Assembly (NCBI GenBank): GCA_002794785.1
Contig: NBBA01000012.1
Span: 620,001 to 684,000 of the forward strand
Direction: 5' to 3'
DNA length: 64,000 bases
Origin: Coniferiporia sulphurascens
Taxonomy: Eukaryota; Basidiomycota; Agaricomycetes; Hymenochaetales; Hymenochaetaceae
Within the stretch, counting starts at the first letter, position 1; each line of letters starts with the position of its first letter. The notes under the pieces are model-generated. The model made no database searches. It had not been told where the DNA came from and worked only from the letters and a program-made list of their open reading frames with translations. Positions 2,591 to 26,008 of this stretch are shown piece by piece. A program made the position numbers and the translations under genes.

Positions 2591-3150
2591 TGTTAAGCTC
2601 AACGGTTACGCGGTGATCGATGTTGGGGCTTCCTGATCGTCGGGACTGATGGTACGGCAACAGGGTTTCCTAGATGTCGTAAGTCGAGGGATGATCGTCG
2701 ATGGGGCTTCCTGATCGGCGATGTGGACGCGGTAGGCTTCTTATAGCAAGTCGGGTTATGACGAAGCGACTATTGGTTAATAGACACACAGTAGACTGGT
2801 GGTAGCAGATAATGGGCTTGTATGAACAAAGAGCACAAGCTTAGGGCTTGTGCTACTGAAGTTACATGCTTATATGCTATCCTATGTGTTTGCTACTGTA
2901 GCGACTTGGTTAGGTGTGTTTACCAGACTATGGAAGGTCATGGAACTCAAGGGAGTGCCTTGGTAATACGAGTATGGTGATCAGTAAGCAAAGCACATCA
3001 TGATGGTGCAAGAAGGCGTCATCATGGCGTCTTATGGCACAAGGCGAATAAGGATGAGTAAGGTAGAGAAATGGGGGAGTTGCGCTGACAGATGGTGACG
3101 AAAGAGAAGTGAGTCAGCGCAATAAGGGGAAGTAAAGGAAAATTGTAACA
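2591..3150 (-). mobile_element. LTR-1A: solo LTR, 560 bp, TSD CCAGG
   Basis: The unit begins TGTTAAGC and ends TTGTAACA, giving inverted TGTTA/TAACA termini. It is flanked by perfect 5-bp duplications CCAGG at 2586-2590 and 3151-3155. Three other copies (12898, 29382, 58468) share this sequence, each with its own 5-bp TSD. No gag-pol interior is attached, so it is a solo LTR left by LTR-LTR recombination. A TATA-like ATATAAGC reading on the minus strand near 2870 suggests minus-strand sense, with moderate confidence. It splits the RNase H codons of L0. Confidence 0.93.
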
Positions 3151-3164
3151 CCAGGTATTGTCTC

Positions 3165-3344
3165 TTTTTTTTTTTTTTTAATTTTAAATTTATTATTCCT
3201 ACTGAGTTACATAATACACCTGAAGCCCTGAAGGGGCCGCCTGTAAACTACTTAACTACTGAGGCACCTGTCATTGCTCATCGAGTGAAACTGGGTGGGG
3301 TGTGTGCCTCCCAAAGGAGGCCTAGTGTGCTTATGCACCCTATT
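3165..3344 (-). repeat. Subfamily-B LINE 3' UTR and poly(A) tail of XY2, distal part
   Basis: On the plus strand a T-run (from 3165) is followed by TTTATTATTCCTACTGAG and a region matching 40133-40310 of L13. It stops at the 17-bp TSD (3328-3344) where XY1 inserted, and resumes at 14041. There is no coding content. Confidence 0.85.
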
Positions 3345-3657
3345 TGTTTTTTTTAAAATTATTCCTGCAGTATTACATAATTACAAGCTGCCCCCCCAAA
3401 GGGGGGGCCCTAACTACATAACAACAGAGGCACCTGTCATTGTGCATTGCACAAAACTGGGTGGGGGCTCTGCTCCCCAAAGGGTGCCGGAGTGTGAAGA
3501 ACCCCTATTTAGTACAAGAGACTGGCAAGAGAGGAATACATATCGCTATGAACAAACCGAGCGGGTGAGGGCAGGTTAAAGTAGGAAGCTTAGAATTGAG
3601 AAAGAGGAGGTGAGAGCGCTGGCCGAGACATATCCGTAGGAATTTGAAAGACGGGCG
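3345..3657 (-). repeat. Subfamily-A LINE 3' UTR and tail of XY1
   Basis: After the ORF2 stop the minus strand carries the family 3' UTR: an AATACATATCG-type block, a GGGGGGCC/GGCCCCCC inverted repeat, GTAATTATGTAATACTGCAGGAATAA, then an A-rich tail ending at the 17-bp TSD. The same block closes every subfamily-A copy in the window. Confidence 0.88.
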
Positions 3658-5740
3658 CTAATCAGAAGGAAAGGGAGGGAGCATGCCTGATAGCTCCAAA
3701 AGGGCTGGGTCTGAGTCCTGGGTTTGTGGTCCGAGCATATGACGCATGTAGTCCCATAGGAGGTCCAAATCCATATCTTCATCAGTTGGGTGGCCATCTA
3801 GGTCCATTGTGGCAAATGCCAGTCGAATGGCGCCTGAGGTCCAGTCTGAGAGGCGGTTTAGGTGCCCTGTCAGCTTAAGCCAATGGTGCAAAACTGGGGG
3901 CGGTGTTCATCAGCCCACTCTGAATGGTGGACTGGGAGAGGGTCCTGAGGTGGCCATATACATTGTATCCATGGGTGGAATGTGCTGCAGCTGCCTAAGA
4001 TGTGGGTGGTCGACTGTGCGGGCCAGGGGGGGTGGTTGTGCCACCTGCAGTGTGAGATCAGGCCATGCCTGTGCCGGTAGGCTGAGTCAAAACTCAGCCA
4101 GTAGCCCCTGTATGGACCGGCATGGCAGAGGACCTGCGCAACTGTGGAGAGCTTGTGGTGTGGGTGGTCAACTGAATGCATGAGGAGCTTTCGAGGTCAG
4201 CGAGATGGGATGCCATGTACTGCCAGATATTTATCGGCAGTGGAGGCGAGGGGGTGGGTGAGTGAGAGGGTCCACCAGTCCATGAGGGTGTGGATGGTGA
4301 CTTCTTTTAGTGTGGAGGTGGATGGCTTTAGGTCAGATGGAGGGAGCTCTGTTGCCAGTTTCACTTCCGTGTCAGCCCATTCATTGCTGGGGATGTCCGA
4401 GTGGCTGGGACACCATACGAAATTAACGGTGAGCTGGGGGTATGAGTCCAGCAGAGTCTCCACACCCGCCTTCCAGATGTGGAGGAGGTGGGCTCTGGGG
4501 GTGGTGGCCCAGGTGCGGAAGAGGTGGAGGGCGGTCAGCAAATTGGATAGAAAGAAGATGTCCGATGCGACATGCAGTTGAGCCAGGAGGTGGCACACTA
4601 CCCAGCCGGGAGCCGTGGTGAGAGAGAACTCTTCGGCATCTGTGGCTGTTGTGCAGGTGGGGGACTCCAGTCAGCATGACCAGAGTCGAGTATGGCCGAG
4701 CATTGCGCAGATGGCCGAGCCCAACTTATTGTCAATGTGGGAGCCATCAGTGAATACTTGGATGTGGGGAGTGGAGCTGAGTTCACATGCCGCTGACACA
4801 AATGACTTGCGGGTGTCAGCGCTGACTGGGGTGGCAGGGGTGGTAAATCAGACACGGCCCTGCATGAATGCCAGAGGGTCCATCCAGGGGGGATGTGTGT
4901 ATGCAGGAACTTGTTGAACCCGAGGGGCTCGGACCTGCAAAGAAAGTGAAAAAGGTCTATTAGCTACGTTTTTAAATAATTTGCAGCCAATAGAGTGAGG
5001 GGTACACCATAGGTGCAGGGAGTGGGTCATCTTTATATACTTGAAATAGAAAGAGAGAGGGGGAACAGAGCAAAGAAAATTAGTAGAATGGGGGGAGGCA
5101 CCTTTGAAGATGCCTAGGATCCAGCAGCACACTGTATTCTGTACAGCTTGCAGTCGGTTTACCAGTGTTTTTTGGCGGTGGCCATGGAACCAAACTGGCG
5201 CTCCCCAGGCGAGGACAGAGCAGACACAGGAGGTATAGAGGCGGCGGAGGAGGAGGGCCGAGATGCCATGCTGAGTATTGCCCAGGATGCGGAGGGTGGC
5301 AAGTGTTGATAGCCCCTTGGAGCGCATGCACTCCACATGGGACTTGAAGGATAGGCCTGGGTCCCACCATATCCCCAACCACTGAAGTGGGATTGAGGGG
5401 CGGATCAGGGTGTTGGGGTTGACCTGTACCCTGGTGGTGTCCCAGCCATCATAGCTGGTGCGTCACCGAGGGGGGTGAAAGTGGAGACACTCTGTCTTGG
5501 CAGCTTCGATGTTGAGACCGATAGTGCCAAAGAGGGTGTCAAGTTGGTGGTAGGCATTGGCGAGTGCGCAGCAGTTGGATGCCACTGAAGGGCCTACACA
5601 AATTAGTAGATGGTCGTCAACATATGCCAGGGCAGTGGTGCCGGCTTGGTGAAAGCGCTGGAGGACCACACCTGTGAATATAGTTGACAGGATGGGGGAG
5701 ACTGGCGATCCCTGGGGGGTGCCAAGATCGGGTTTGGGGG
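3658..5740 (-). pseudogene. XY1 LINE part: ORF2 from mid-RT through RNase H to C terminus, broken
   Basis: The piece starts at the RT motif KPDLGTPQGSPVSPIL directly after the XY body. AYVDDHLL follows, then the thumb, RNase H (VFTDGS, SNEWAD) and the C-terminal block (HCRWHNHPPW, DMDLDLLWDYM, ALLELSG). Most of it is in one frame interrupted by stops, including TGA at 5465-5463 after HFHPPR, a site also hit in L7, L8 and L14. A 1-nt deletion near 3890 shifts the C terminus, which ends at 3658. It cannot encode a working enzyme. The 3' UTR runs on to 3345. Confidence 0.88.
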
Positions 5741-6594
5741 CCAGAATTAAGAGCGCCCTTGCAGGACTCAAGCAACACGTGTACCTTCCTCGGGATATGC
5801 AGCCAACCGAAACTGCTCCCGCTGTCCTCTATGACATATGGGCGCTATATTGGAGCACTAGGGTAAGGCGTGCCGTGCCAGGAGGCCACCCCGGGTGTAG
5901 GTTGCAGCGCCATAGGCACTACTACCCCCATATGGAATGACCCCCCTACCCTACACATTCCCTCCCCAACCATAGAGGTCCTGTAGAGTACTGCTGCACT
6001 TCTGGGAATCAACTTAAGCCCATAGTGGGAATTACCCCCACACAAACCAATGGAGGATTTAGTCCTCTGGAGCCACTGGGAGGGACTCTCCCACAGCGCT
6101 ACAGCCTGAGACACTACACTTCAGTGCGCCGGAATGCCAATGCACACTCCATGCAGGCCCTTTCCCATGCCCTGGCACATGCTTCAGAAACAGCCATTAC
6201 AGCCGGAATACTCAGGCACTGAGGTCATGGGACAAGTGCCCAGTCAACCCCCAGCCCCACTTCTGGATCCGCGATCATACCAGGATCTCCATCTCGCATA
6301 CCCGACCCTGGTGGCAAAGCTGTCCCAGGGAGTAGGGGATACTAACCACCTCAAGGGGGTCCAACCCACCCAAGAGGCCCATGGTGCCCTGTCGCCTTTC
6401 AGCGTCGGGTGGTTCTTACCGCCACACCATGTGTTATGAGCCCCCTATCTCCTTTTAGCACGAGGTGCCATCATCAGAGACCCTTTTGGGAATTTGGGGG
6501 GACAGTTTTTGATTTGTCATGCCAGGGACAACATGGGCCCCAAGGTACCCAGGAGGGCAGTGCTCAGCACCCAAAGGTGCGATCCGAGTTGCCC
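5741..6594 (-). repeat. X part of the XY body in XY1 (3' portion)
   Basis: These 854 bp match 14202-15055 over their full length with scattered substitutions. No long ORF is shared between the two copies in either strand, so I see no coding evidence. On the minus strand it runs straight into LINE RT at 5740. At 6594 it is interrupted by the poly(A) end of L4; the degenerate TSD TCCGAGTTGCCC (6583-6594) recurs as TCCAAGTTTCCC (13620-13631). I do not recognise its origin. Confidence 0.82.
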
Positions 6595-6802
6595 TTTTTT
6601 TTTTTTTTTTTCCTTTATTATTCCTGCAGTATTACCTAATTACAAGCTGCCCTAACTACGTAACAACAGAGGCGCCCGTCATCGCACAATGCACAAAACT
6701 GGGCGGGGGCCCTGCTCCCTGAAGGGTGCCAAGGTGTGAAGGGCCCCTATTAGCAAAAGAGTGGAATGAGGGAGGAATACATATCACTATGGCATAGCCA
6801 AA

Positions 6803-6836
6803 TATATAACGAACAACATAAAATAGTAGTTCAATG

Positions 6837-6909
<73 letters not shown>
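6803..6909 (+). mobile_element. Small insertion with a 73-nt pure poly(A) tail in the L4 3' UTR
   Basis: Other copies read GCCAAACAGAC at this point (complement of GTCTGTTTGGC, for example 44325-44335). Here about 34 bp (TATATAACGAACAACATAAA...TTCAATG) and then 73 uninterrupted A (6837-6909) are inserted. The short body resembles the start of the 257-bp element at 62112 (AATATAACGAACG...). It looks like a severely 5'-truncated retroposed RNA. A TSD cannot be told from the A-run. Confidence 0.65.
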
Positions 6910-6910
<1 letters not shown>

Positions 6911-7000
6911 AGACGACATCAGGTGCAAAGGAGTAGTTTAGAATGGAAAGGGGGGCGAGAGGCCAGCGGGACGTATGAGGGGGAGTCCGAAAGGTGGGCA

Positions 7001-10000
7001 CTAGTCAGAGGAAAAGGGGGGAAGCGCACCTGAAAGCTCCAAGAGAGCCGGGTCCGGATCCTGGGAACGGGTTCCAAGCATATGACTCATGTAATCCCGG
7101 AGGAGGTCCAGGTCCATATCTTCGTTGGTCGGGTGTCCCTCCAGTGCCATCGTGGCAAACGCCAGGTGGATAGTGCCAGAGGTGCGGTCGGAGAGGCGAT
7201 TAAGGTGCCCCATCAGCTTCAGCCAGCAGTGCAGAACCTGGAGATGGTTTTTGTTGGCCCACTTGGTGTGGTGGGTCGGAAGTGGGTCATGGGGGGGCCA
7301 GACCTTGCGGATCCAGGGTCGGAATGTACGACATCCACCCAGTATGTGGGCGGTCGACTGGGCCGGCCAGGGGGGGTGGTTGTGCCATCTGCAGTGCGAG
7401 ATCAGGCCATGCCTGCACCAGTAGGCTGAGTCAAAGCTCAGCCAGTAGCCCCCATAGGGACCAGCATGGCAGAGAACCTGGGCGACTGCAGAGAGCTCCT
7501 GGTGGGGTGGTCAACCGACTGCGTGATGAGCTTCCGGGGACGATGGGAAGGGACCCCATTTACAGCCAAGTATTTGTCGGCTGTCGAGGCAAGTGGGCGG
7601 GCGAGTGAGAGGGACCATCGCTCCATGAGTGTGTTAACAGCGGCCTCTTTCAGTGCAGAGGTGGAGGGTGCGAGGGATGACAGGGGTAGGTTTGTCGTGA
7701 ACTTCACCTTGTGGTTGGCCCATTCATTCCCAGGGATGTTGGAGTGACCCAGGCACCACACAAAATGAACGGAAAGATCTGGGTGTGAGTCCAGTAGAGT
7801 CTGGTCCCCTGCCTTCCATTGGTGGAGGAGGTGTGTGCCGGGACAGGCGCCCATGTTCGGATCAAGTGGAGTGCGTCAGTGAGTCCAACAGAAAAAAGAT
7901 GTTGGATGCGACAGGCAGGAGCTCCCGTAAATGGTGTGTGGCCCAGCTCGGTGCAGAGGTGAGGGAGAAAATCTCCGCGTCCGTAGCTGTTGTGCAGGTG
8001 GGGGAGGCCAGCCGGTGAGACTTGAGGCGGGTAAGACCCCTCATGGCACAAACAGCTGATCCGGACTTCAAACCCATGCGCGAGCCATCGGTGAAGACCT
8101 GGAGGTGGGGGAGGGTGCTCAGGGAGTGTGCGGCTGCCACAAATTCGTCGTGGGTGTCCTTGCTGACTGGAGTGATAGGAGTGGCAAACAAGACTCTTCC
8201 ATTCGTAAATGCCAAGGGATCTGTCCACAGGGGATGAGTGTATGCTGGGACTGCAGAGAAGTGGAAAAGGGGCAGTTAGTTACATTTTTATAATATCGTT
8301 TTCTACCAACAGAGTGTGGGGTGCGCCAGAGGCGCAGAGAATGGAGGGTCTTAGCATATTCGAAATAGTAAGAGAGAGGGGGAAGGGAACAAAGAAAATT
8401 CGTTGAAAAGGGAGAGGCGCCTTTGTAGACACTGAGAATCCATCTGCATGCCGTGTTTTGCACAGCCTGCAGGCAGCTTACTAGTGTTTTTTTGGAATCA
8501 GCCATGGTACCATACTGGCATGCCCCACATGAGGACGGAGCGGACGCAGGTGGTGTACAGTCGATGGAGGAGAAGGGCTGAGATACCACATTCGGTGTTG
8601 CCGAGAATGCGGAGGGCGGTGAGGGTGGAGAGGCCTTTGTAGTGCATACGTTCCACGTGGGCCTTGAAAGTGAGGGCAGGGTCCCACCATATTCCCAGCC
8701 AGCGCAGCAGGATAGAGGGTCGGATAAGCATGGTGGGGGCGACCCAAACCCGGCAGTATCCCAGTCGGTGTAAGCAGCTGACCATCGTCAGGGTGGGTGG
8801 AAGTGTAGGCACTCCATTTTGGCAGCTTTGATGTTGAGACCGATGGTGCTGAAGTGGGCATTGAGTTGATGGTAGGCATTGGACAATTGCTGGCAGTTGG
8901 ATGCCATGCTGGGTCCGATGCACACCAGGAGATGGTCGTCGATGTATGCTAGGGCAGTGGTGCCGGTCTGGTGAAATTTCCGGAGGACCACGCCTGCGAA
9001 TATAGTCGAGAGGATTGGGGACACAGGTGATCCCTGAGGAGTGCCAAGGTCAGGTTTCTGGGCTGTTGGGAGGATGGTGCTGTCAAAAGCGATGGCGACC
9101 TGCCAGTCTGTCATGAAGGACAAGCACCAGTCTGCCATGTCAGGCGGGCACTGGAGGTCCAACAGTTGCCTGTGGAGGAGTTGCAGGTGTACCGAGTCGA
9201 AGAAACCCTGTATGTCGACTGCTAGGACCGAGCATACATGGCCCTTGGCATGGGCACACTCTGCAATCTGTAGGAGGTGCTGGGCGGTGTTGTAGACAGA
9301 ATGTCCTTGACACCCCCCATATTGATTAGGTGGCAGCCAGTCTCTTGTGTTAGCAAGGAACTGGAGCCGGTTAGCAATAATTTTTTCCAGGAGTTTCCCT
9401 AAGGTCTCCTTGAGGGTGATAGGCCGGTATGACTGCGGTGAGAATGGATCCTTCTTGTTGGGCTTCCTGAGCATCACCACTTTTGCTGCCCACCAGCACT
9501 TGGGGTGGTGCCCCATGCACAAGCAGTCGTTGAAAAGGGTGAGGATCTCGTCAGGGTAGGCATCTACCACCCATTTGAGCAGGCAATAGCTGATCCCTGA
9601 GAGGCCCAGGGCTGACAAGTTGGAGGTATCGGACAGTGCCCCTGTAAGCTCCGAGAGGAGTATGGGCAGGGCAGCAGGTTGGGGGGAGGCAGTGGTGTGT
9701 TGGCTGCTGGTTGGGGTGGTGGAGGCATGAAGAACGTAGAGCAGAAAAGCTCACCTTTCTCATTGTCTGATTGGGTGAAGGTGCCATCGCTCTTCTTGAG
9801 GGATGGGATTGGGGTGGGGTGGTTGCCGAGCCACGCTTGGCCCAGCTCTAGATATTGGAGGCGTCCGCTTGGTCAGCCTGTTCAGCATAAAAGTGCCTTT
9901 TGGCCACTCGAATGCCGCATTTGAAGGTGTGGCAGGCTGCTGATTGCTGAAGGGGGGTGGTGGCTGTCGAGATCGCCTGGAGGAGCGACTTACATGCTGG

Positions 10001-10961
10001 GGTCCACCAGGGGACTTCGGACTTGGACAGCTTTGCGAGCCTGGTGAAGGGAGTGAGTGTGGCGATCATAGAGTCGACCACTGCCTGCGCTTTCTTATCA
10101 AGGGCAAGGGTGTTGTCCGCTGGATGTGAGGGGGTGGATTCGAGTAGGGGAGAGGCGATTTCGGACCATTCCTCCCTGTCTGCCGGGAGTAACTGGCATG
10201 TTTTGATGATGGGGGTGGAGGCCGAGATGGCAGGGACCAGCACAACATGGCATGGTTGGACAGTGGTGAGATGGATGAGGAGCCTGAATCTATTATTGTG
10301 TCAGGGTTAATCATGGGGGGGGACCAGATCATGTCAATTGGGCACTGCCGACAATTGTCAATGGGCCATGAGTCAGAGTCTGGGAGGTGGGCTGGTGCAA
10401 GGCCATGCTCCTGGAAGAAGTCATTGAGGGGTTGTGCCCTCAAGTCCTCCTGCTGCGAGGCGAGGAGTTCAGACCACGAATGGTGGCGACAGTTGAAGTC
10501 GCTGGCCACAAGTAGTATGGAGGCCAGTGCCAGTGGGATTGTGAAGAGGAACGTCTCACCTGGGTAGAGGGGGGTGGCGGTGGTGCGGTCCGGTGCATGC
10601 ATGCCGTAATAATTGCACAGGCAGATCGTCAGGTGTGAGCAGATTTCGATGGTACTGGAGGAAGCGGCTCCTAGGACGGACCATTGAGTGGAGGGGATGG
10701 CACGGGATATGTAGGTGGCTACCCTTGGCTGGGTGGCCAGGGGGAGAACCGCCATGTATCCGGGAGGGATGGGACATTGGGTACCAGGGTGCCGGTGGGG
10801 TTGGTGAGTGAGGGCTGGAGACCGATTTGGTACCAGGGTGGTTCCTGGATTAAAATGACGGTGGGTGGGGATGGGTCAGTGGTAAGGATCGGAATAAGGG
10901 AATGGACCGCAGCTAGCGAGTAGGCAGCATTCCACTGAAGAATAGAGATGTCTCTATTCAT
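7001..10961 (-). pseudogene. L4 ORF2 (endonuclease-RT-RNase H), multiply frameshifted
   Basis: The start ATG (10961-10959) overlaps the ORF1 stop as ATGA. The protein begins MNRDISILQWNAA, followed by APE-endonuclease blocks LIQEPPWYQIGLQPS, GDFN-type (SDFNCRHHSW) and PIDMIWSPP. The RT has KPNKKDPF, NQYGGCQGHSVYN, LAVDIQGFFDSVH, GTPQGSPVSPIL and AYIDDHLL. RNase H has VFTDGSRMG and GNEWA; the C terminus ends ALPPFSSD at 7001. At least six frame changes are needed to read through, so it is dead, although the listed catalytic motifs are intact apart from SDFN for GDFN. It is about 1,320 codons long. Confidence 0.88.
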
Positions 10962-13561
10962 GAGTCCTCCATTGTTTCGTCTTCGGGTCCTTCAATGGCG
11001 GCCTCGATCTGGCGGTATCGCCGTTTCTTGGGGCACTGAGGGTAGGTGGCAGGGTGGTCACCCTTGCAGTTAGAGCAGTAGCGAGGGTGAGGGCAGTGGT
11101 TGCCCTCGAAGGCTTTGTTGGTGCAGTGTGCACACGACTTACAGTGGTTGTGGGAGAGGTGACCTCCTCCACATTCGGCGCAACAGGGCTGGGCTCGGCA
11201 TCCTTTCGTTCCATGTCCTAGGCCCTGGCAGCGCTCACATTGGGTGAGGCTGGGGCGGAAGGGGGGGACCGAGAGGGAGAGGGAGGCACTGAACATCCAT
11301 ACTTGCGGGCGCTTGAGGAGCTGCGCATGGATGGATCCATTGGGGTCAGCAAAGGAGAATGCCATGGGGCACCTATCGAGGGTCAGCAGGTGGTCGTCGG
11401 TGGCAGCGAAGTGTGGGTCAACGATGAAGTCGAGGTTGTGGAGAGCTGGATTGTGCCGGACTTCAGCCATGAGGGCCTTCGTGTTGATGGTGTGGCCGTT
11501 CTGGCTGAAGAGGTAGTCCTTGCACAGCACCATGGAGATGTGGAGTGCAGACCGGGGGTGGACACAGACAGGGTTGAAGGAGAATGTCTTGGGGATCTTG
11601 TTGACCTCCAGGGACAGGCTCCTTTCGCACATATGGGCTGCGAAGGCTGCAGAATGCCGATCGATGATTGTATCTGTGGCTGGGGTGGCGGAGGAGGGGT
11701 GCTTGGCGAAAGAGGTCATGAGGTTCCCCTTTACATTGAAAGAGGACACCAAAACTGTGACCTGGTCAGCAGTGGGAAGGGAGGAGAAGAACTCACGGGC
11801 TGTGGCGGTGAGGCGCATGGCTGGGAGCTGGACTTCGGACTTGATTGCAATGGTCGGCAGGAGGACCAGGGTTGGGTCCTTGGCGTACATTGGGGGTGGG
11901 GGTGGTACTTGGCACTGCTTCTTCTTTTTCTTGTGGGTCACTGTCATGAAGACTGCGCCCGGAGCTGGGGCCATTGGGTTGGGGTTGGAAGCATTGGGTG
12001 GGGCCGGGGCAGCTGCCACCTGGGCATAGGAGGTTGGTGCTGTGTTGATGGCAGCCTGGGCGGTGGTGGTCATGGGGGCCTGGGCCTTCTGGGCCTGTGG
12101 GGCACAGGGCACGGGCCGGTTGACGAGCATGGAGGCTTGCTGAGAGATGGTGGCAACTTCTGTGGATAGCTGTTTGACAATGTTAGTCAGTGCAGCCACA
12201 TCAGGTGACATATTGGCGGTTCTGGGGGTCCTTATCGGGGCAGAGGGTTGGGTGGTGGTGGTTGGGGTCCGTTGTTGGGGGCGAGCTGGGGCGAAGGGTG
12301 CTGGAAGGGAGGCTTCCACCCCCTCCCTTGCAAAGTTATAGGCCATCTCCAGATTGCGGGAGATGATGTGCTGGGGGTCCTTCTCGTCCCTAAAAACGCC
12401 GGCAATGGTCTGTTGGACGTTCCAAAGGAGGTTGCCAACAAACTGAGTGGCTGCTCGGTTGGTCTCTGTGGAGCTGGAGCAGTGGGTCTTCTGGTTGAAG
12501 TCCTCTAGCATTCGGGAGAGGGAGTACATGAATCCCAACGTGTGCGGCTTGAACTGGTCTCAAGGGCGGGGTCGGGGGGTGTGAGGGGATAGGTTCTCGG
12601 ACGACTGTTTATGGGTGAGCAGCGGGGAGGGGGTGTGCGGGTTCTCGAGGATGTCCCCCATTTTGCGACCTTGGACTTCTGCCGAGGTGTTGGAACCTAC
12701 CGAGGGGGGACGGCTGATGTGCTCGAATGCGCAAGTAAACTCAGTGTTCGAGACTCTGATGACGGGGGACAGGGCAAGGCGGAGAGCGTCTGGGGACGAT
12801 GCTGGAGGCCTGGGTCGATTTGGGTGGGGGTGGGGGTCATGCCATGTAGTGCGGCAGCGGTGTTGCCAGCGGCCACCCAATTGGCAGCGGCCCTGGCTGT
12901 TACAATTTTCCTCTAACTTCCCCCTTATTGCGCTGACTCACTTCCTCTTCATCATCATCAGTCAGCGCAACTCCCCCATTTCTCTACCTTACTCATCCTT
13001 AGTTAGCCTTGAGCCATAAGACACCACAATGATGCCTTATTGCATCACCATGACGTGCTTTGCTTACTGATAGCCCTACTTGTATTACCAAGGCTTTCCT
13101 TGGGTTTCCATTGACCTTCCATAGTCTGGTAAACTACCCTACACAGGCTGCTACAGTAGTAAACACATAGAGTAGCATATAAGCATGTAACTTCTGTAGC
13201 ACAAGCCTTAAGCTTGTGCTCTTTGTTCATACAAGCCCATTATCTGCTACCACCAAGTTCACTGTGTGCCGCTGAGCCACCAGTCGCTTCATCATAACCT
13301 GATACTGCTAAGGAGCCTACTGCAGTACACATCGTTGATCAGGAAGCCCCCTTGACGATCATATTCGACTTACAACATCTAGGAAGCCCTGTTGTCATCT
13401 CTACCAGTCCCAATGATCAGGAAGCCCTGACGTCAATCACCGTGTAAACCGTTGAGCTTAACACTGGCGGCCCTGTCGGCATCGGTGCTGGCCGATGAGG
13501 GGGGTGGGAGGGGTGGTCGAGTCGAACATAGAGCATTCCTGTATCCACTGGGGTTCGACAT
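10958..13561 (-). pseudogene. L4 ORF1 (gag-like with CCHC knuckles), split by LTR-1B
   Basis: The start ATG is at 13561-13559. Removing LTR-1B and one 5-bp TSD restores the reading frame. A TGA at 12562-12560 stands where L11 has CGA. Downstream, 526 codons are open: conserved helix block (GFMYSLSRMLEDF, QFVGNLLWNVQ, MAYNFAREG), a Pro/Ala-rich linker, a basic KKKKKQ patch, then CERCQGLGHGTKGC, CCAECGGGHLSHNH and CSNCKGDHPATYPQC knuckles near the C terminus. CCHC knuckles bind nucleic acid in gag-like proteins. This is the longest undisturbed ORF1 segment of its subtype here. Confidence 0.9.
12898..13463 (+). mobile_element. LTR-1B: solo LTR, 566 bp, TSD CTGGC
   Basis: The unit starts TGTTACAATTTTCC and ends GAGCTTAACA, the reverse complement of LTR-1A. 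Perfect 5-bp duplications CTGGC lie at 12893-12897 and 13464-13468. It interrupts the N-terminal alanine-rich part of L4 ORF1. There is no internal region. Confidence 0.93.
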
Positions 13562-13631
13562 GGGGGAGTTTTAGCTGCCCACACTAGTTGATGGTGGTGG
13601 TTACTGGTCAAGAAGGATGTCCAAGTTTCCC

Positions 13632-14040
13632 TGAACTGAGATCTCCCAACCGAAGTCGCCTGCTGCGAGGCAGGGGGTTTCCCCCCCCCCTGTGAGGACG
13701 TTAACGTTGTGTCCCCCCCACCGAGCCCACATACAATGCAAGCCCAACGAGCATGCCACCCCGAGAGGACAGCGCAGACGCCAGAAGGATGCAAGCTCAC
13801 CGAGAATCCAACCAGAAGCAACATTTTTGATGGGTTGCCAAGACTGCTGGTGAGCTCTGCGCCTGTTCCCTGCCATGTTATGGCAACTGATGACCAACCC
13901 TGGTGCACCAGGGTGAGTCAGAACCTTCTCTTGTATGATGCCCAGTCCCAGAGAGTCCAGACAAGGTCAGGTAGCTGCAACTTCCCCCAGCCAACCCCAG
14001 TCACAAAACTGAGATGGTGGTGGTAAGAGGACAAGAAGGA
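13632..14040 (-). repeat. Y part of the XY body in XY1 (5' portion with LINE-like head)
   Basis: It matches 15056-15469 of XY2. Its 5' end, read on the minus strand, is CTTCTTGTCCTCTTACC followed by ACCACCATCTCA, close to the LINE head and closer still to the variant head of L19 (52465). Beyond that block it is unrelated to the LINE leaders. It contains long G/C runs and a GACGTTAACGT palindrome. No convincing ORF is shared by both copies. Confidence 0.8.
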
Positions 14041-14201
14041 TGCTTATGCACCCTATTGAGGATAAATAGAGAGGGGAGGAAGAGGGAGGAGTACATATTG
14101 CGACTGAAGAGACCATAGCCAAGTAAAATGAGATCAGGAAAAGACAGTCCCTTAGAATAGGAAAGGAGCAGCTGCAAGTGCCATAGAAGAAACTGATCCA
14201 G
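14041..14201 (-). repeat. Proximal part of the XY2 LINE 3' UTR
   Basis: It matches 40296-40446 of L13 (subfamily-B 3' UTR), beginning with the 17-bp TSD of XY1 and ending where the X sequence starts. Together with 3165-3344 it forms the complete XY2 3' UTR. Confidence 0.83.
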
Positions 14202-15469
14202 AATTAAGAGTGCCCTTGCAGGACTCAAGCAATGCATGTACCTTCCTTGGGATATGCAGCAGGCAAAACTCCTCCCGCTGTCCTCTCCGACTTATGGGCG
14301 TGTGACGCACTAGGGTAAGGCGTGCCATGCCAGGAGGCCACCCCAGGTGCAGGTCACGGTGCCATAGGCACTACTACACCCATATGGAATGACCCCCCTA
14401 CCCTACACATTCCTTCCCCGACCATAGAGGTCCTGGAGAGCACCGCTGCACATCTGGGAATCAACTTAAGTGACACAGTTGGAATTACCCTGACACACAC
14501 CGACAGAGGATTTAGTCCTCTCAAGCCACAGTATGCAACTCTCACACAGTGCTATGGCCCACAACATACCACTTCAGCAAGCCGGGATGCCGACTCATGC
14601 TCCATGATAGCCGTTTCCCATTCCCTGGCATGCGCTTCAGAAACAGGCCATTACAGCCCAGAATACTCAGGGACACCAGTCATGAGTGACAAATGCCCAG
14701 TCAACCCGGCACCCCCGCTTCTGGATCCATGATCATACCAGGATCTCTGCCTCACATAGCTTGACCCTGGTTGCAGAGCCGGCCTGAGGACTCCACCATA
14801 CTAACCACCAGACTGGGAGATGGAACAACCCAGCCGGCCTGTGCTGCCCTGCGCCCTGCCGGGCTCGGGTGGTTATAACCCACAATAGACATGTGTTACA
14901 AGCCACCTATCTCCTTTTAGCATTAAATGCCATCATCAGAGACCCTGCTGGGACTTGGCAGAGCAGTTTTTAATTTGTCATGCTAGGGACAATGTGGGCT
15001 CTGAGGTGCCCAGGAGGACAGAGCTCAGCACCCGAAGGCGTGATCTGAGTTGCCCCAAATCGAGGTCTCCTGACCAAAATCGCCTGCTGCAAGGCAGGGG
15101 GTTTCCCCCCCCCTGTGAGGACGTTAACATTGTGTCCCCCCCCACCGAGCCCACATAAAATGCAGGCCCAACGAGCATGCCGCCCCAAGAGAACAGCGCA
15201 GACACCAGAAAGAATCATCCTCACCGAGTCATCAATCCAGAGGCAACATTTTTGACAGGTTGCTAAGCTAGCCAGTGAGCTCTGTGCCCATTTCCTGCTG
15301 CATTACAGCGACTGATGAACGACCCCGGTGCACCGAGGTAAGTCGGATCCCCTCTCTCGTACGATGGCCAAGGCAAGGCCCCAGTGCAAGGTCGGGTTGC
15401 TGTGACATACTGCCAAGAACACCCCAGAGCGAAAGTGAGATGGTGGTGGTAAGAGGACAAGAAGAGATG
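14202..15469 (-). repeat. XY body of XY2, uninterrupted copy (1.27 kb)
   Basis: This is the only unbroken XY body. On the minus strand it begins with a LINE-like head (CATCTCTTCTTGTCC) at 15469 and ends TTAATTCTGG at 14202, where the LINE 3' UTR begins. The ends agree with the XY1 copy. ORFs are short and not convincingly conserved. It may be a captured cellular transcript or a non-autonomous LINE derivative; I do not recognise it. Confidence 0.8.
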
Positions 15470-15481
15470 AGGTATTGCCTC

Positions 15482-16486
15482 ATGTCCCAGGCACCATTGG
15501 AAATGAACAGTTAGATTTGGGAAGGAGTTGAGAAGAGTCTCAACCCCCGCCTTCCAGAGAGGGAGGAGCTGGGCCCCCAATGCTGAGGGCCAAGTGCGAA
15601 AGAGGCTGAGTGCTGTCAGAGAGTCGGAGAGAAAGTAGATCTCCTGGACATCTGGCAGTAGGTGTTGGAGTCGGCATGCTGCCCAGCCAGGAGCAGTCGC
15701 CAGTGAGAAGATCTCGGTGTCTGTTGCTGTAGCGCATGTGAGGGAGGCGAGCCGAAGGGAGGTGATGTAAAGTTTGCCCTTCATACCACAGATGGCGGAG
15801 CCTGAGGCATTACTGATGTGAGATCCATCTGTAAACACCTGCAGGGAGGAGTCGGTGCAGAGAGCCTGGGCTTGGGCAACATAGTGGTCGTGCACTTCCG
15901 CAGAAACTGGCTGCCTAGGGGCTGAGAAGACGATTCAGCCTTGACCAAAGGCAAGGGGGTCCGTCCAGGGGGGGTGCGTGTACACTGGGATCCATTGGAC
16001 TCAAGGGATGTGGACCTGCAGAGAAAGGGAGAAAGGAGTGTTAGCATTAGGATTAAACTTTTTCTGACCAACATGGTGGGGAGTGCGCCATAGGCGTAGG
16101 GCATGGGTGATCTTTAAATACTCAAAGTAAGCAGAGAAAGGGGGAGTGGAACAAAGAAAATTTGTAGAGTGGGGTGATGCGCCCTTATAGACACCTAAAA
16201 TCCAACGGCAAGCAGTGTTCTGCACGGCCTGTAGTCGGTTGACTAAGGTTTTTTGTCGATGTCCATGGTACCAAACTGGTGCACCCCATGCTAAGATGGT
16301 GCACACACAGGCAGTATAGAGTCAGTGGAGGTGGATGGCAGAGAGGCCCCTTTTGGTGTTGCTAAGTATGTGTAGGGCTGCCAGTGTTGAGAGACCTTTG
16401 GAGTGCATGCACTCCATGTGAGGTTTGAAAGTGAGGCCCACATCCCACCAAATTCCCAGCCAGCCAGGGGGTTGGTGGGGCGGACC
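15482..16486 (-). pseudogene. L0 ORF2 fragment: RT thumb, linker and RNase H
   Basis: The minus strand reads WGAPVWYHGHRQKTLVNRLQAVQNTACRWIL (thumb and connection), then RNase H with VFTDGSHIS, EIFSLATAPGWAA, LSDSLTAL and HFQWCLGHEAI. The metal-binding D, E, D and D positions of RNase H are recognisable. Two TGA codons lie between the thumb and RNase H, after LQVHIP and GQG. The fragment stops at the XY2 insertion, and its continuation is 2381-2590. Confidence 0.86.
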
Positions 16487-19543: not shown

Positions 19544-19828
19544 TCGATTTGTATCCCTGTGGTGTCCCAGTGGTGGTAGCCGGTTCATCATCTGGGTGGG
19601 TGAAAGTGGAGGGCCTCTGTCTTTGCTGGTTTGATGTTGAGACTGATTTGGCAGAAGAGGAGGTCGAGTTGCCAGTATGCCTGTGCAAGGGATCTGCAGT
19701 TAGCTGTTACTGAGGTACCCATGCAGGCTATGAGGTGGTCATCGACATATGCCAGCAGTTGTGAGCCGCGCTGTTGAAAGTGCCACACTATGATGCTGGC
19801 GAAGATGGTTGATAGGATGGGTGACTCT
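19543..19828 (-). pseudogene. L0 ORF2 fragment: RT active-site region
   Basis: The minus strand reads AYVDDHLIACMG (YVDD box) and SLNIKPAKTEALHFHPPR, in frame with no stop over 66 codons. It is bounded by the TSDs of L7 (19543-19559) and L8 (19815-19828), and joins 26009 upstream and 16844 downstream. Confidence 0.86.
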
Positions 19829-20218
19829 TTTTTTTTTATTTTTTTAAAATTATTCCTGCAGTATTACGTAATTACAAGCTGCCCCCCCCAAAGGGGGGGG
19901 CCCTAACTACATAACAATGGAGGCGCCCGTCATTGCGCATTGCACAAAACTGGGTGGGGGCTCTGCTCCCCGAGGGGTGCTGAAGTGTGGAGAGCCCCTA
20001 TTTAGTAAGAAAAAACTGCAAGAGGGAGGAATACATATCGCTATGAACAAACCATGTGGGTGAGGGCAGGTTAAAGTGAGAAGCTTAGAAGTGGAGAGGG
20101 AGGGCGAGAGCGCTGGCCAAGACATATCTTGTGGGAATCCGAAGGGCAAACTTTACTCGAGCAGGAAAGGGGGGAGTGTACCTGATAGCTCCAAAAGGGC
20201 TGGGTCCGAGTCCCGAGT

Positions 20219-23200
20219 TCATGGTCCGAGCATACGTCGCATGTAGTCCCATAGGAGGTCCAGGTCCATATCCTCGTTGGTTGGGTGTCCATCAAGCTCC
20301 ATTGCAGCAAATGACAGCTGGATGGCGCCTGCGGCATGGTCAGAAAGGCGGTTTAGGTGCCCCGTTAGCTTAAGCCAGTGGCGCAGAACCGGGAGGCAGT
20401 TTTTGTCAGCCCACTCTGAGTGGTGGACTGGGAGAGGGTCCTGAGGTGGCCACACACGTCATATCCACAAATGGAAGGTACTGCAGCTACCGAGTATGTG
20501 GGCGGTCGACTGCATGGGCCAGAGGGGGTGGTTGTGCCACCTGCAATGCGAGATCAGGCCATGCCTGCACCGGTAGGATGAGTCAAAACTCAGCCAGTAG
20601 CCCCCATAGGGACCGGCGCAGCAGAGAACCTGTGCAACTGCAGATAGCTTGCTGCAAGGGTGGTCGACCGAATGCATGAGGAGCTTTTGAGGTCGTCATG
20701 AGGGTAGGCCGTGGACTGCCAGATACTTATCGGCAGTTGAGGCAAGGGGGCGGGCTAGTGAAAGCAACCATCGCTCCATGAGGGTGTGAATGGCGACTTC
20801 TTTTAGTGTGGAGGTGGAAGGTTTGAGGTCGGATGGGGGGAGCTCTGTTGCCAGCTTTGCTTCCATGTCAGCCCATTCATTACCGGGGATGTCCGAGTGG
20901 CCAGGGCACCATAAAAAATGAACAGTGAGCTGGGGGTATGAGTCCAGCAGAGTCTCCACACCTGCTTTCCAGATGTGGAGGAGGTGGGCGCCTGGCATGG
21001 CAGCCCAGGTGCAGAAAAGGTGCAGTGCAGTCAGCGAATCAGACAGAAAGAAGACATCTGATGCGACACGCAATTGAGCTGGGAGGCGGCATGCTACCCA
21101 GCCTGGAGCCATAGTGAGGGAGAATTCCTCGGTGTCTGTGGCTGTGGCACAGGTGGGGGACTCTAGTCGGTGTGACCAGAGTCTGGTGTGGCCCAGCATA
21201 GTGCAGATGGCTGAGCCCGACTTATTGTCAATGCGGGAGCCATTGGTGAATACCTGGATGTGAGGGGTGAGGCCTAGTTGGCACACAGCTTGTATGAATG
21301 ATTTTCAGGTGTCGGTGCCCACTGGGGTGGCGGGGGTGGTAAAGCGGACGCAGCCCTGTGTGAAGGCCAGAGGATCCGTCCATGGGGGATGTGTGTATGC
21401 AGGGACCTGTTGAACCTGGGGGGCTCGGACCTGCAGAGAAAGGGTGAAAGGTCTATTAGCTACGTTCTTAAAAAGTTTACGACCAATAGAGTGAGGGGTG
21501 CACCAAAGGCACAGAGAATGGGTTGTCTTTATATATTCAAAATAGAAAGAGAGAGGGGGAACAGAGCAAAGAAAATTTGTGGAATGGGGGGAGGCACCTT
21601 TGAAGATGCCCAGGATCCAGCGGCAGGCCGTGTTTTGCATGGCCTGGAGGCAGTTTACCAGAGTTTTTTGGCAGTGGCCATGGTACCATACTGGTGCTCC
21701 CCATGACAGGACGGAGCAGATGCAGGAGGTGTACAGGCAGCGGAGGAGGAGGGCCGAGATACCGTGTTGTGTGTTGCCTAAGATGCGGAGTGCAGCGAGG
21801 GTGGAGAGCCCCTTGGAGTGCATGCACTCGACATGGGGCTTGAAGGAGAGGCCTGGGTCCCACCATATTCCCAGCCACTGGAGCGGGATTGAGGGGCGGA
21901 TCAGGGTGTTGGGGTCAACCTGGATGCCGGCAGTGTCCCAGCCATTGTAGCCAGTATGTCACCGGGGAGGGTGGAAATGGAGACACTCTGTCTTGGCGGC
22001 TTTGATGTTGAGACTGATGGTGCCAAAGAGGGTGTCAAGTTGTTGGTAGGTGTGGGCAAGGGCATGGCAGTTGGATGCCACTGAGGGACCTATGCAAATA
22101 AGTAAATGGTCATCAACATATGCCAGGGCGGTGGTGCTGGCTTGGTGAAAGCACTGGAGGACCACCCCCACAAATATTGTTGATAAGATGGGGGAGACTG
22201 GCGATCCTTGGGGGGTGCCGAAGTCGGGTTTGGGGGTGGTAGGGAGGGTAGTGCCGTCGAAGGTGACAGCGACTTGCCTATCCGTCATGAAGGACAGACA
22301 CCAGTTGGCCATATCTGGCGCACAACCGAGGTCCAACAGCTGCCGGTGGAGGAGTTGGGGGTGCACTGAATCGAAGAAACCCTGAATGTCGACTGCAAGG
22401 ACTGAACAGACTAGGCCTTCCGAATGAGCACATTCCGCAATCTGTAAAAGGTGTTGGGCAGCATCGTAGACCAAATGGCCTTGGCGCCCCCTGTATTGGT
22501 TGGGTGGCAGCCAGCCCCTCGTGTTAGCGAGGAACTGGAGCCGGTTAGCTATTATCTTTTTGAGGAGTTTCCCTAGGGTCTCCTTGAGGGTGATGGGCCA
22601 GTATGACCACAGTGAGAATGGATCCTTCTTGTTAGGCTTCCTGAGCATCACAACTTTTGCTGCCTGCCAGCACTCGGGGTGATGCCCTAAGCGGAGGCAG
22701 TCATTGAAAAGTGTGAGTATCTCGTCAGGGTGGGCATCGACCACCCATTTCAGGGGGCGGTAGCCTATTCCCGAGAGGCCCAGAGCCAACAAGTTGGATG
22801 TGTCAGCCAGTGCCCCCATAAGCTCTGATAGGAGTATGGGCGGGGCAGCTGGTTGAGTTGGAGGTAGTGGGATGTCGGTTGCGGCCTGGGGTGTGGGGGG
22901 CGTGAAGAAGGTTTCACGAAAGAGCTCACCTTTCTCATCATCCGTCTGGGTGAAGGAGCCGTCTTGCCGCTTGAGCGAGGGGATGGGGGTCGGTCGGTTA
23001 CCGAGGCCGTGCTTGGCCCAGTTCCATATGTTGGTGGCATCCACTTCTGATGCCTGGTTGGCATAGAACTGCCGTTTGGCCATCCTGATGCCCCTTTTGA
23101 AGGCTCGTCTTGCTGATGCACACTGGAGGGGGGTGGTGGCTGTTGTAATAGCAGATAGTAGGGTCTTGCAGTGGGGTGACCACCATGGGACTTCCATTTT

Positions 23201-24150
23201 CGATGGCTTGGAGAGGCAGGTGAACGGCTGGAGGGTGGTGACCATGGAGTCAATAACTGCCTTAGCTTTGGTGTCCAGGGCTTGGGTGTCGAGTCCTGGG
23301 AGGTGGAAGGCTTCTTTGAGTAATGGGAAGGCGATGTCGGTCCATTCCTCCTTGTCAGCTGGGAGTAGCCAGCACATCTTTAGGACAGGAGGGGGGGCCG
23401 AAAAGGCAGTGACCATTGCAGGATTGTGTGGTTGGACAGTGGTGACGGGTCGGAGGTAGCCGAGTCTAAAATAGAATCAGGGTTGACCGCAGGTGGGGCC
23501 CAGATCATGTCAATGGGACGCTGATGACGATTGCCGTCAGGCTGTGAGTCAGAGTCAGGAAGGTGGGCAGGCGACAGGCCATGCCCATGGAAAAAGTTGT
23601 TGAGGGGTTGCGCCCCTAAGTCATCTCGCTGTGCGGCTGGGAGTTCGAACCACGTGTGGTGGCGACAGTTGAAGTCGCCCACCACAAGTAGAGTGGTGGC
23701 TAGCACCAAGGGGAGTGAGAAAAGAAATGACTCACCTGGGTACTGTGTAGAGGCATTTTCATGGTCTGGGGGGTGCATGCTGTAGAAATTGCATACCCGG
23801 AGGGTGAGTTGGGATTGTACCTCCACTGTCAATACATCGGTGCCGTGGGATGCGTCTCCGAGTATCGACCAGGAGGTAAGGGGAAGGGCCCTGGATATGT
23901 ACGTGACTACCTGAGGATGAACCTCTGGTGGTAGGACTGGCACATAGCCTGGGATGGTCAGGACGTTGAGGACCAGAGTGCCAGTCAGGTCGGTGAGTGA
24001 GGGTTGCAGACCTATTTGATACCAGGGAGGTTCCTGTATAAGAATTAGGTGTGGGGGGGAGGGGTCAGTTGTAAGGGCTGGGATTAGGGAATGTATCGCC
24101 GCTAATGAGTGGGCGGTGTTCCACTGTAGGATAGAGAGTGTCTCTATCAT
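20219..24150 (-). pseudogene. L8 ORF2 (APE endonuclease, RT, RNase H), near-intact
   Basis: About 1,310 codons. ATG 24150-24148 overlaps the ORF1 TGA. Endonuclease: MIETLSILQWN, LIQEPPWYQIGLQPS, GDFNCRHHTW, RPIDMIWAPP, LSNHTIL. One frameshift lies near 23400; from there to 20219 everything is in one frame. RT: KPNKKDPF, NQYRGRQGHLVYDAAQH, LAVDIQGFFDSVH, GTPQGSPVSPIL, AYVDDHLL. RNase H: VFTNGSRID (D to N at the first catalytic position), WCPGHSDIPGNEWAD. Four in-frame stops are seen (starting near 21961, 21307, 20698 and 20461), all TGA; at three of them sister copies keep an arginine codon. Lesions are few, but both the stops and the RNase H change make it inactive. Confidence 0.92.
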
Positions 24151-25939
24151 ATTTCCTCCATCTGTTCATCAGTGGGGTCGGCGGCTAGGGCCTCTTCGAT
24201 TTGACGGTAATGCCTCTTCTTAGGGCATGCCGGCAGGGTGGCAGGGTGGTCACCCTTGCAGTTGTTGCATAGGCGGGGTGGGGGCATGTGTCGCCTTCAG
24301 GCACCGCGTTGGTGGCGCAGTGGGCGCATGATTTGCGGTGATTGCGGGTCAGGTGGGCACCTGCGCAATTGGCGCAACATGGTTGGGCTCGGCAGCCCTT
24401 GGTTCCGTGGCCGAGGCCTTGATACTGCTCGCATTGAGTGAGGGTGGGGCGCATGGGGGGGACCGAGAGTCGGAGGGCGGATCCGAACATCCAGACGCGT
24501 GGTCTCTTGAGGAGGTGTTCACATATGGAGCCATCCAGGTTGACAAAGGAGAAGACCATGGGGCACCTGTCGAGTGTCGGCAGGTGGTCCTTGGTGGCGG
24601 TGAAGTGGGGGGTGACTACAAAGTCAAGGTTGCAGAGTGCCAGGTTGTGCCGGATTTCGGCCATTAGAGCCTTCTTGGTGATGGTATGTCCATTCTGGCT
24701 GAACAGGAAGTCCTTGCAGGGCACCATGGAGATGCAGAGGGCGGACTGGGGGCGGACTCTGGAGGGGGTGAGCGAGAAAGCAGCTGGGATGTTAATCCCC
24801 ACTGCTATGCACTCTGTGTGCATATGGGAGGCATATGCCATGGAGTGTCGATCAATGATCGTCTCCGTGGTCGGGTTAGCCGAGGACGGGTGCGCCGCAA
24901 ACGTGGTCACGATGTTCCCCTTTATGTTGTAGGAAGAGGACAGGACTGGTACTTGGTCTGCGGTGGGGAGGGAAGCGAAGAACTCATGGGACATTTTTGT
25001 GAGAGCCATTGCTGACTTCTGGTTTTCGGCCCATATGCTGACTGTGGGGGTGAGGACCAAGGTTGGGTCCTTGGCATACATTGTTGGTGGTGGGGGCACC
25101 TTCCGCTGGTGCTTCTTCTTCTTCTGTGCCGGGTTGATGACTGCTCTGGCAGCTGGGGCCACTGGAGATGGGTTGGTGGATGTGGGGGGGGCCACCGCTG
25201 CAGCGACCTGCGCATAGGAGGTGGGGGTGGCCTGGATGGTGGCCTGTGGGGTGGGTTGCTGTTGTTGTTGTTGCTGTGAGCACTGGGTGGGCCTAGAGCT
25301 GATAGAAGCCACATCAGTAGTCAGGGACTTGACTGTGTCAGTCTGTGCTGCCTTGATGTCGATGGTCTCAATGGTGGCGTCCCTGGTTTCCTTGTCAAAG
25401 TCGTCCAGGGCATGGGAGAGGGCATGCATGAAACCCGAGGTATGGGGTTCGTGCTGTAGTTGAGCAGGGGGTCCTCTCGGGGTGAGAGGCGACATGGCGG
25501 TGGAGGAGCGTTTCCACCCAAGGCTTGCACCTCCCACCTGTTGCAGGGGGGTATGGGGATCGACCGCCATTTCTGGGGCCATCTCGCTGAATTCGTTGGA
25601 GCCATGGTTCAACCCTACCAAGGCGGCTGGGGAGCCGGCTCGGGATGCTTGCCTTGATTCCATGCATGCCTGGGCAGTGAAATCGTAGGCCGACACCATT
25701 TGGGAGTCGCCTATGGCTGGGGAGGGTGCTAGGACGTCTGGGGAGGAGGTTGGGGCCAAGAGTGGGTTTTGAGAGTATGGGGTGGGGGTCGTCTCGCACA
25801 TGGTGGCTGTGACAGCTTCGGCTGACAGGTTGGAGGCGGCTTCGGTGGCTCTTGCGGCTGCTAAGCTGGCTGACGAGGATGAGGTGATGGCTGGTCGATT
25901 GTGATGGAGTGCATTCTGGTAATCACTGGGGTTCGACAT
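24147..25939 (-). pseudogene. L8 ORF1 (gag-like, CCHC knuckles) with a late frameshift
   Basis: ATG 25939 opens 584 codons (to 24185) beginning MSNPSDYQNALHH. A Ser/Ala-rich N terminus is followed by GFMHALSHALDDF, a glutamine run, the PTSYAQVAAA linker, a KKKKHQRK basic patch and a core domain (MVPCKDFLFSQNGHTI, PHFTATKDHLPTLDRCPMVFSF). The C-terminal knuckles follow. The first knuckle reads CEQYQGLGHGTKGC, with Tyr replacing the second zinc ligand (CERC elsewhere). A single-base change of frame inside the last knuckle (after CPHP) removes the normal C terminus, which otherwise ends at the TGA shared with the ORF2 start at 24147. Confidence 0.9.
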
Positions 25940-26008
25940 GGGGGAGTTTTAGCTGCCCACACTAGTTGATGGTGGTGGTTACTGGTCAAGAAGGGGATGG
26001 GTGACTCT

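Follow-up and report, generated by a model that had tools for sequence, protein, structure and literature searches.

XY-LINE chimeras with a constant partner and variable joins in the basidiomycete Coniferiporia sulphurascens: possible template switching at a short motif

Background

Chimeric insertions in which a copy of another RNA precedes a 5'-truncated long interspersed nuclear element (LINE) have been described in a fungus and in mammals, and it is an open question in the field whether template switching or RNA ligation gives rise to them. In Magnaporthe, the WEIRD-MGL chimeras (MINE), 31 of which are known in PMC2104539, were interpreted in the sections consulted of that article as products of template switching, with the join motif GCC/(A or U), i.e. 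GYY upstream of the join (the slash marks the join; Y, pyrimidine; R, purine). For the chimeras of U6 small nuclear RNA (snRNA) and LINE-1 (U6/L1), the sections consulted of PMC13174262 present RNA ligation (RtcB) and template switching as possible origins. No report of such a chimera in a basidiomycete was met among the titles and abstract openings viewed in the open-licence PMC literature, subscription papers lying outside the search.

In the present study, a stretch of 64,000 nt of Coniferiporia sulphurascens (assembly GCA_002794785.1, 39.3 Mb in 31 contigs; contig NBBA01000012.1, positions 620,001 to 684,000, forward strand), hereafter the window, was analysed together with the rest of the assembly. 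A sequence of approximately 1.27 kb, named XY, is joined through a constant 3' end to widely different points of LINEs in the same orientation. Herein, we describe these joins and suggest that template switching by the LINE reverse transcriptase (RT) is their best explanation.

Results

Two XY-LINE chimeras are present in the window, as claimed in a preliminary description of this DNA. Both are on the minus strand, and XY1 lies in two pieces, split by a later LINE (Table 1). The LINE part starts in the middle of the RT region (nt 3762 of a full-length reference LINE) in XY1 and in the 3' untranslated region (UTR) in XY2, and the two LINE parts belong to different subfamilies, as seen from their different 3' ends. 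XY2 begins with CATCTCTTCTTGTCC and ends with CTCTTAATTCTGG, behind which the LINE 3' UTR is joined. A single target-site duplication (TSD) surrounds each whole unit, an identical 15-mer for XY1 and an 11/12 match for XY2. On the different join points, the different LINE parts and the single TSDs the preliminary description was correct. The LINE-like head that it had also ascribed to XY exists for the first approximately 30 nt (26/30 identical to the LINE 5' end) and does not extend further.

The same arrangement recurs throughout the genome. At least 46 matching rows were obtained by a DNA search with XY2, and two patterns of the XY 3' end, with up to 2 mismatches, located 71 places and, for diverged classes, a further 70, giving 141 in total; reversed-pattern controls gave 0 matches in the same genome. 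The sequence was read at all 141 (of the first 71, 2 lie in the window, and 19 were read in 10-kb loci and 50 in short ones; of the other 70, 4 were read in 10-kb loci and 66 in short ones). Sense LINE sequence continues directly from XY in 140 of them, and there the untailed UUAAUUCUGG, or a close variant, immediately precedes the LINE, in agreement with the earlier claim of one recurrent partner RNA with fixed ends, as in Magnaporthe. At the remaining place (L014), 13 nt weakly matching the reference LINE (best 11/13) are followed by an inverted LINE tail. The preliminary description had recommended a search for a parental gene or stand-alone XY copies: no solo copy was seen among the 141 located 3' ends, and no parental gene was found in the genome, although a diverged or unassembled gene would have escaped the search.

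Among the first 95 places, 91 joins map directly on the reference LINE and three (L042, L048 and L074) match other LINE copies, and all 46 read later map on the reference LINE. With these three, L014 and 3 DNA duplicates omitted, 134 mapped joins occupy 87 distinct positions, from nt 7 (L039) to nt 6015, and the listing of junctions proposed earlier returned constant XY ends with many different LINE joins. XY as a normal internal part of LINEs, or XY 3' ends varying at a constant join, was not seen in this listing. The joins are biased to the LINE 3' side (in the first set, 56/88 lie no farther upstream than nt 5000 of the 6170-nt reference), as is expected where synthesis starts at the LINE 3' end, and hot spots are common to different XY subfamilies, e.g. 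nt 5650, used six times. Same-join pairs were considered as possible cases of a chimera that had moved again as a whole, a reading that was rejected: L012/L013, L056/L068 and L049/L069 look like DNA duplicates by their flanks; the flank check was confined to these pairs and to L054/L059, for which the fetched flanks stop short of the XY 5' ends. Of the 22 units examined, with L012 and L013 counted as one duplicated locus, 10 have a TSD that immediately flanks XY and LINE together (L011, L019, L020, L022, L023, L025, L030, a diverged XY in L016, XY1 and XY2); the other 12 lie in nested LINE sequence, in which the TSD was not resolved. The TSDs of XY2 and L030 match no better than the best hit of a shuffled sequence anywhere downstream and are called from their position directly behind the LINE tail. 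End patterns with up to 3 mismatches occurred at 353 (XY 5'), 358 (LINE 5') and 928 (LINE 3') places, and by these rough counts, part of which was read, XY 5' ends are about as frequent as complete LINE 5' ends. In the locus with the most upstream join (L039; C4:672561-672720, 160 nt read), where the LINE is joined to XY from nt 7, XY may have become a new 5' leader on an almost complete LINE.

A short motif was observed on the LINE side of the join. The motif was read for 92 joins (95 minus the 3 DNA duplicates) against LINE copies running through the same point, and 46 joins read later, not filtered for duplicates, were scored with the model of the first set. In the 92 joins, information is present only at -3 to +2, with C or T in 97% at -3 and 94% at -2, G in 60% and A in 18% at -1, and C in 76% at +1 and 65% (60/92) at +2; over the 72 distinct positions the motif is similar, with G at -1 in 51%. 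Two pyrimidines at -3 and -2 occur in 84/92 joins, compared with 33% of LINE positions (binomial, 3e-31). The later set shows YY in 42/46, G at -1 in 34/46 and C at +1 in 36/46, and 35 of these joins fall within the best 10% of LINE positions, where 4.6 were expected. The preference for C at +2 was not replicated (16/46, with A in 23/46), and the core of the motif is therefore YYG/C. The base at +1 matches the LINE donor in 82/92 joins, like the bases that follow, and thus untemplated bases were not seen at the 92 joins.

Nine ordinary 5'-truncated LINEs with a TSD, taken from the same DNA, served as a control. At the exact boundary, YY at -3 and -2 was found in 1/9 (Fisher, 5e-7 against 84/92 and 3e-6 against the later 42/46). 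These boundaries are blurred because TSD and LINE can share bases there; within 2 nt of the boundary, a best-5% site was present in 5/9 (21% expected; binomial p = 0.02) and a best-10% site in 7/9 (37% expected).

The full-length XY copies fetched have constant 5' and 3' ends, and some other copies are 5'-truncated or interrupted. Comparison of 20 XY sequences from the retrieved loci separated the groups a1, a2, a3 and b, with identities of 88-94% within groups, 78-88% among the a groups and 63-68% between a and b, and the XY 3' ends reveal classes beyond these. Two LINE families with different 3' ends participate in the chimeras: a1/a2 copies are followed by LINE family II in 6/6 resolved cases (L011, L015, L016, L018, L019 and XY2), and a3 copies by family I in 9/10 (exception, L027). 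This tally omits L012, an a1 copy with a family I tail 4.2 kb on that may belong to a nested LINE, and L014, L020 and L026, in which the pattern located no tail. No long conserved reading frame was seen in XY, where the longest stop-free sense stretch spans 71-183 codons and the frame shifts between copies, and Rfam gave no match up to E = 1 in window positions 3100-15600; XY is probably non-coding, and we infer that it is an RNA. Differences between XY copies are mostly C-T and A-G (28,334/42,939 over all pairs), as expected of methylation-like decay or decay resembling repeat-induced point mutation (RIP).

The 3' terminus of XY consists of a conserved hairpin followed by UUAAUUCUGG. The last 29 nt gave this hairpin and an unpaired tail in 4/5 folds. 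In a set of 39 of the 141 3' ends, picked from the classes, 98.5% of the cells are paired (at most 67% in slid controls), a share reached by 0/500 shuffles; the score and the count of cells with changes on both sides were also above the shuffles. Single XY 3' ends fold no better than shuffles (5 folds, z -0.85 to 0.69), and neither the pairs changed on both sides (2) nor the further pair types (6) exceeded the 39-sequence shuffles (269/500 and 443/500 as high, respectively). A GAG predicted in the hairpin of class-e 3' ends was not found; GGG is present instead, with the pairing kept via G-U.

The XY units and the elements inserted in them are nested, from the outside inwards, as the XY2 unit, the XY1 unit, a full-length LINE and a solo-long-terminal-repeat (LTR)-like element of 566 bp (Table 1). 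The XY1 unit lies within the 3' UTR of the XY2 unit, and XY2 is therefore the earlier arrival. The nest might be taken for a tripartite chimera, LINE-XY-LINE; this was rejected because the LINE between the two XY1 pieces arrived later and has a TSD, albeit an imperfect one, of its own. RVT_1, endonuclease and RNase H models match LINE frames of the window. Identity to one RT frame is 55-75% in its 14 best relatives, the named ones being all from Coniferiporia weirii and the next from Sanghuangporus baumii (56%), which points to a hymenochaetoid host. The solo-LTR-like element (TGTTAC...TTAACA; 560-566 bp) also occurs at window positions 2591-3150, and in the loci retrieved several LINE pieces border on its ends. 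Within the 3' part of the minus-strand LINE, the plus strand has 73 consecutive A (window 6837-6909).

Table 1. Positions of the nested XY-LINE units and related features in the window
Feature	Position	Strand	Remarks
XY2	14198-15469	-	full-length XY, 1272 nt, subfamily a1; 5' end 15469, fixed 3' end 14198
XY2 3' terminal hairpin	14208-14226	-	followed by 10-nt tail UUAAUUCUGG, 14198-14207
XY2 unit, first part of LINE 3' UTR	14058-14197	-	ends where XY1 unit inserted
XY2 unit, remaining LINE 3' UTR and A-tail	3165-3329	-	
XY2 unit, TSD	15470-15481 (AGGTATTGCCTC, 5' copy) / 3153-3164 (AGGTATTGTCTC)		11/12 identical
XY1, 5' part	13620-14042	-	subfamily a3; reaches to LINE inserted in XY1
XY1, 3' part	5741-6594	-	fixed 3' end at 5741
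XY1 3' terminal hairpin	5751-5769	-	followed by tail 5741-5750; by analogy with XY2
XY1 unit, LINE part	3345-5740	-	mid-RT (reference LINE nt 3762) to A-tail
XY1 unit, TSD	14043-14057 (5' copy) / 3330-3344		identical 15-mer CTTATGCACCCTATT
Later full-length LINE inside XY1	6595-13619	-	imperfect TSD 6583-6594 / 13620-13631, 10/12
Solo-LTR-like element inside that LINE	12898-13463		566 bp; 5-bp repeats CTGGC
Reference LINE for coordinates, full-length	19828-25997	-	6170 nt

Among the matches listed, XY and LINE occupy one limited zone per contig, e.g. 1.31-1.58 of 4.98 Mb on C1, 1.51-1.73 of 3.02 Mb on C2 and 0.15-0.68 of 1.53 Mb on C12, the last including the window; these zones are candidate centromeres built of nested LINEs. 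Identical or near-identical flanks were observed at two places in three instances (C10 end and C29 start; C16:46450 and C28:117953; L012 and L013), and such doubled flanks inside LINE zones are candidates for assembly redundancy or duplication.

Discussion

Herein, we propose template switching during target-primed LINE reverse transcription as the best explanation of the XY-LINE joins, an explanation that we consider somewhat probable and by no means secure. First, an XY RNA of approximately 1.27 kb, probably non-coding and with a fixed 3' end that carries no tail, would be transcribed from a start at its LINE-like 5' end; this RNA might come from earlier XY-LINE insertions or from an unseen host gene. 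Second, the LINE RT, copying LINE RNA from a target-primed start, would leave the LINE mostly at YYG/C. Third, synthesis would resume on the 3' end of the XY RNA, perhaps aided by pairing of its terminal UGG with the YYR just upstream of the switch point, and would usually continue through to the XY 5' end. Finally, the joint cDNA would be inserted as a single unit with one TSD, and the join would be formed in cDNA and not in RNA. Template switching predicts constant acceptor ends with shifting donor points, and a single TSD and sense orientation as well. The same mechanism had been put forward in the preliminary description and agrees with the constant XY ends, the many LINE joins, the single TSD where resolved (10/22) and the common orientation; these features do not establish it, as joining at the RNA level, by ligation to a cut LINE RNA, yields the same DNA.

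Several observations weigh against template switching. The absence of untemplated bases, and a motif that spans both sides of the join, would equally fit an RNA cut followed by ligation. The C at +2 failed in the later joins, and the local folding of the LINE gave no clear pausing signal at the joins. The motif may also be a general feature of LINE truncation and not specific to XY, to judge from the nine ambiguous controls. If so, it would mark a stop of the LINE RT or a break of the LINE RNA, with XY as the favoured next template. If the motif is instead particular to XY, the XY RNA might be guided by pairing of its UGG terminus with YYR at -3 to -1; this idea fits Y, Y and R, and does not explain the C at +1 or why G is favoured over A at -1.

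The XY copies might all derive by processing from a single non-coding RNA gene of the host, as has been proposed for WEIRD, and XY would then not be an independent element. This source is compatible with either joining mechanism, and we consider it quite possible, if short of probable. Copies within a subfamily are about equidistant (88-94%), as from one source, and in the window an a1 copy is the older host of an a3 insertion, as if one source had changed over time. Against this, at least 4 subfamilies exist at 63-88% identity from each other, the main LINE partners differ between a1/a2 and a3, and no solo XY was present among the located 3' ends. Given the lack of solo copies, earlier chimeras with their LINE-like 5' end would be a simple source of XY RNA, and XY would in that case be an element of its own kind.

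Concerning the joining itself, an endonuclease might cut LINE RNA at YYG/C and a ligase add the 3' end of XY RNA, the chimeric RNA being then retrotransposed as one template. We regard this route as possible and doubtful. A short motif confined to -3 to +2 on both sides of the join, without untemplated bases, would be in accordance with it, and RNA ligation (RtcB) is one of the two routes given for U6/L1 in the sections consulted of PMC13174262. Used and unused YYRC sites differed weakly in predicted structure, the used sites being slightly less open at the motif. Ire1-type sites have G/C in a loop and with G at +3. The joins do not resemble them, with G at +3 in 17% and used sites that are not more open, and we know of no enzyme with a preference for YYG/C. 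The 3' bias of the joins fits reverse transcription from the 3' end, a filter that ligated RNAs would face as well.

It is also conceivable, though in our view rather unlikely, that XY is a self-sustaining non-autonomous retroelement of a kind not yet described, propagated only by the joining of its fixed 3' end to LINE RNA or cDNA. In such an element, XY would lack a 3' end usable as a LINE start, the LINE-like 5' end of each copy would give rise to a new XY RNA, and every generation would acquire a new LINE tail, different in length, the joining being perhaps guided by UGG-YYR pairing. Without a host gene, XY would owe its existence as an element to such joins alone.

Two further explanations can be put aside. 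It is highly improbable that XY ordinarily forms the 5' part of a LINE family, or that it inserted into LINEs as an independent element: the first approximately 30 nt shared with the LINE 5' end and the join from nt 7 in L039 would suit this idea, but the LINE join shifts over 6 kb with the XY 3' end unchanged, the resolved TSDs flank XY and LINE together, and LINE 5' ends without XY are common (358 pattern places). Splicing in trans or in cis, in which XY would serve LINE sequences as a leader exon and which a constant XY 3' end with variable downstream joins might resemble, has almost no likelihood and was rejected because the AG acceptor is missing, the bases upstream of the join being mostly YYG or YYA with A at -2 in 3% of the 92 joins.

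With up to 138 joins to one constant partner and a motif core that recurred in the later joins, the XY-LINE units form a rich natural data set for choosing between template switching and RNA ligation. An XY RNA ending in CUGG and the presence or absence of LINE RNA ends at YYG/C are predicted signals that could be directly observed.

Comparison with known systems

Short interspersed nuclear elements (SINEs) are non-coding, non-autonomous and moved by LINE enzymes. XY would likewise be non-coding, non-autonomous and mobilised by LINEs, but its own 3' end is neither LINE-like nor A-tailed, and it rides ahead of LINE sequence wherever it was seen. The chimeras of U6 snRNA with L1, and other mammalian LINE-1 chimeras, resemble the XY units, as far as they are described in the sections consulted of PMC13174262, in that a full-length small RNA stands before a 5'-truncated LINE in the same orientation with TSDs. 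The partners there have known host genes, whereas a parental gene was not found for XY, and a junction motif comparable to that of XY was not met in those sections.

The closest known system appears to be WEIRD-MGL (MINE) of Magnaporthe, judged by the features described in the sections consulted of PMC2104539. The two systems differ in number (141 located XY 3' ends against 31 MINEs), in the several subfamilies of XY, in the basidiomycete host, and in the first approximately 30 nt of the LINE and the conserved 3' hairpin carried by XY. The motifs differ as well, the YYG/C of XY standing against GCC/(A or U), which does not appear here in its own register, with G at -3 in 1% of the 92 joins and in 3/46 of the later ones. 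In both, a fixed non-coding 5' partner of similar length (approximately 1.1 kb in MINE and 1.27 kb in XY) precedes a 5'-truncated LINE 3' part in the same orientation, with a varying join and a TSD around the whole chimera, no solo copies of the partner were found, and the joins show hot spots and a short motif. In its workings the XY-LINE system resembles MINE.

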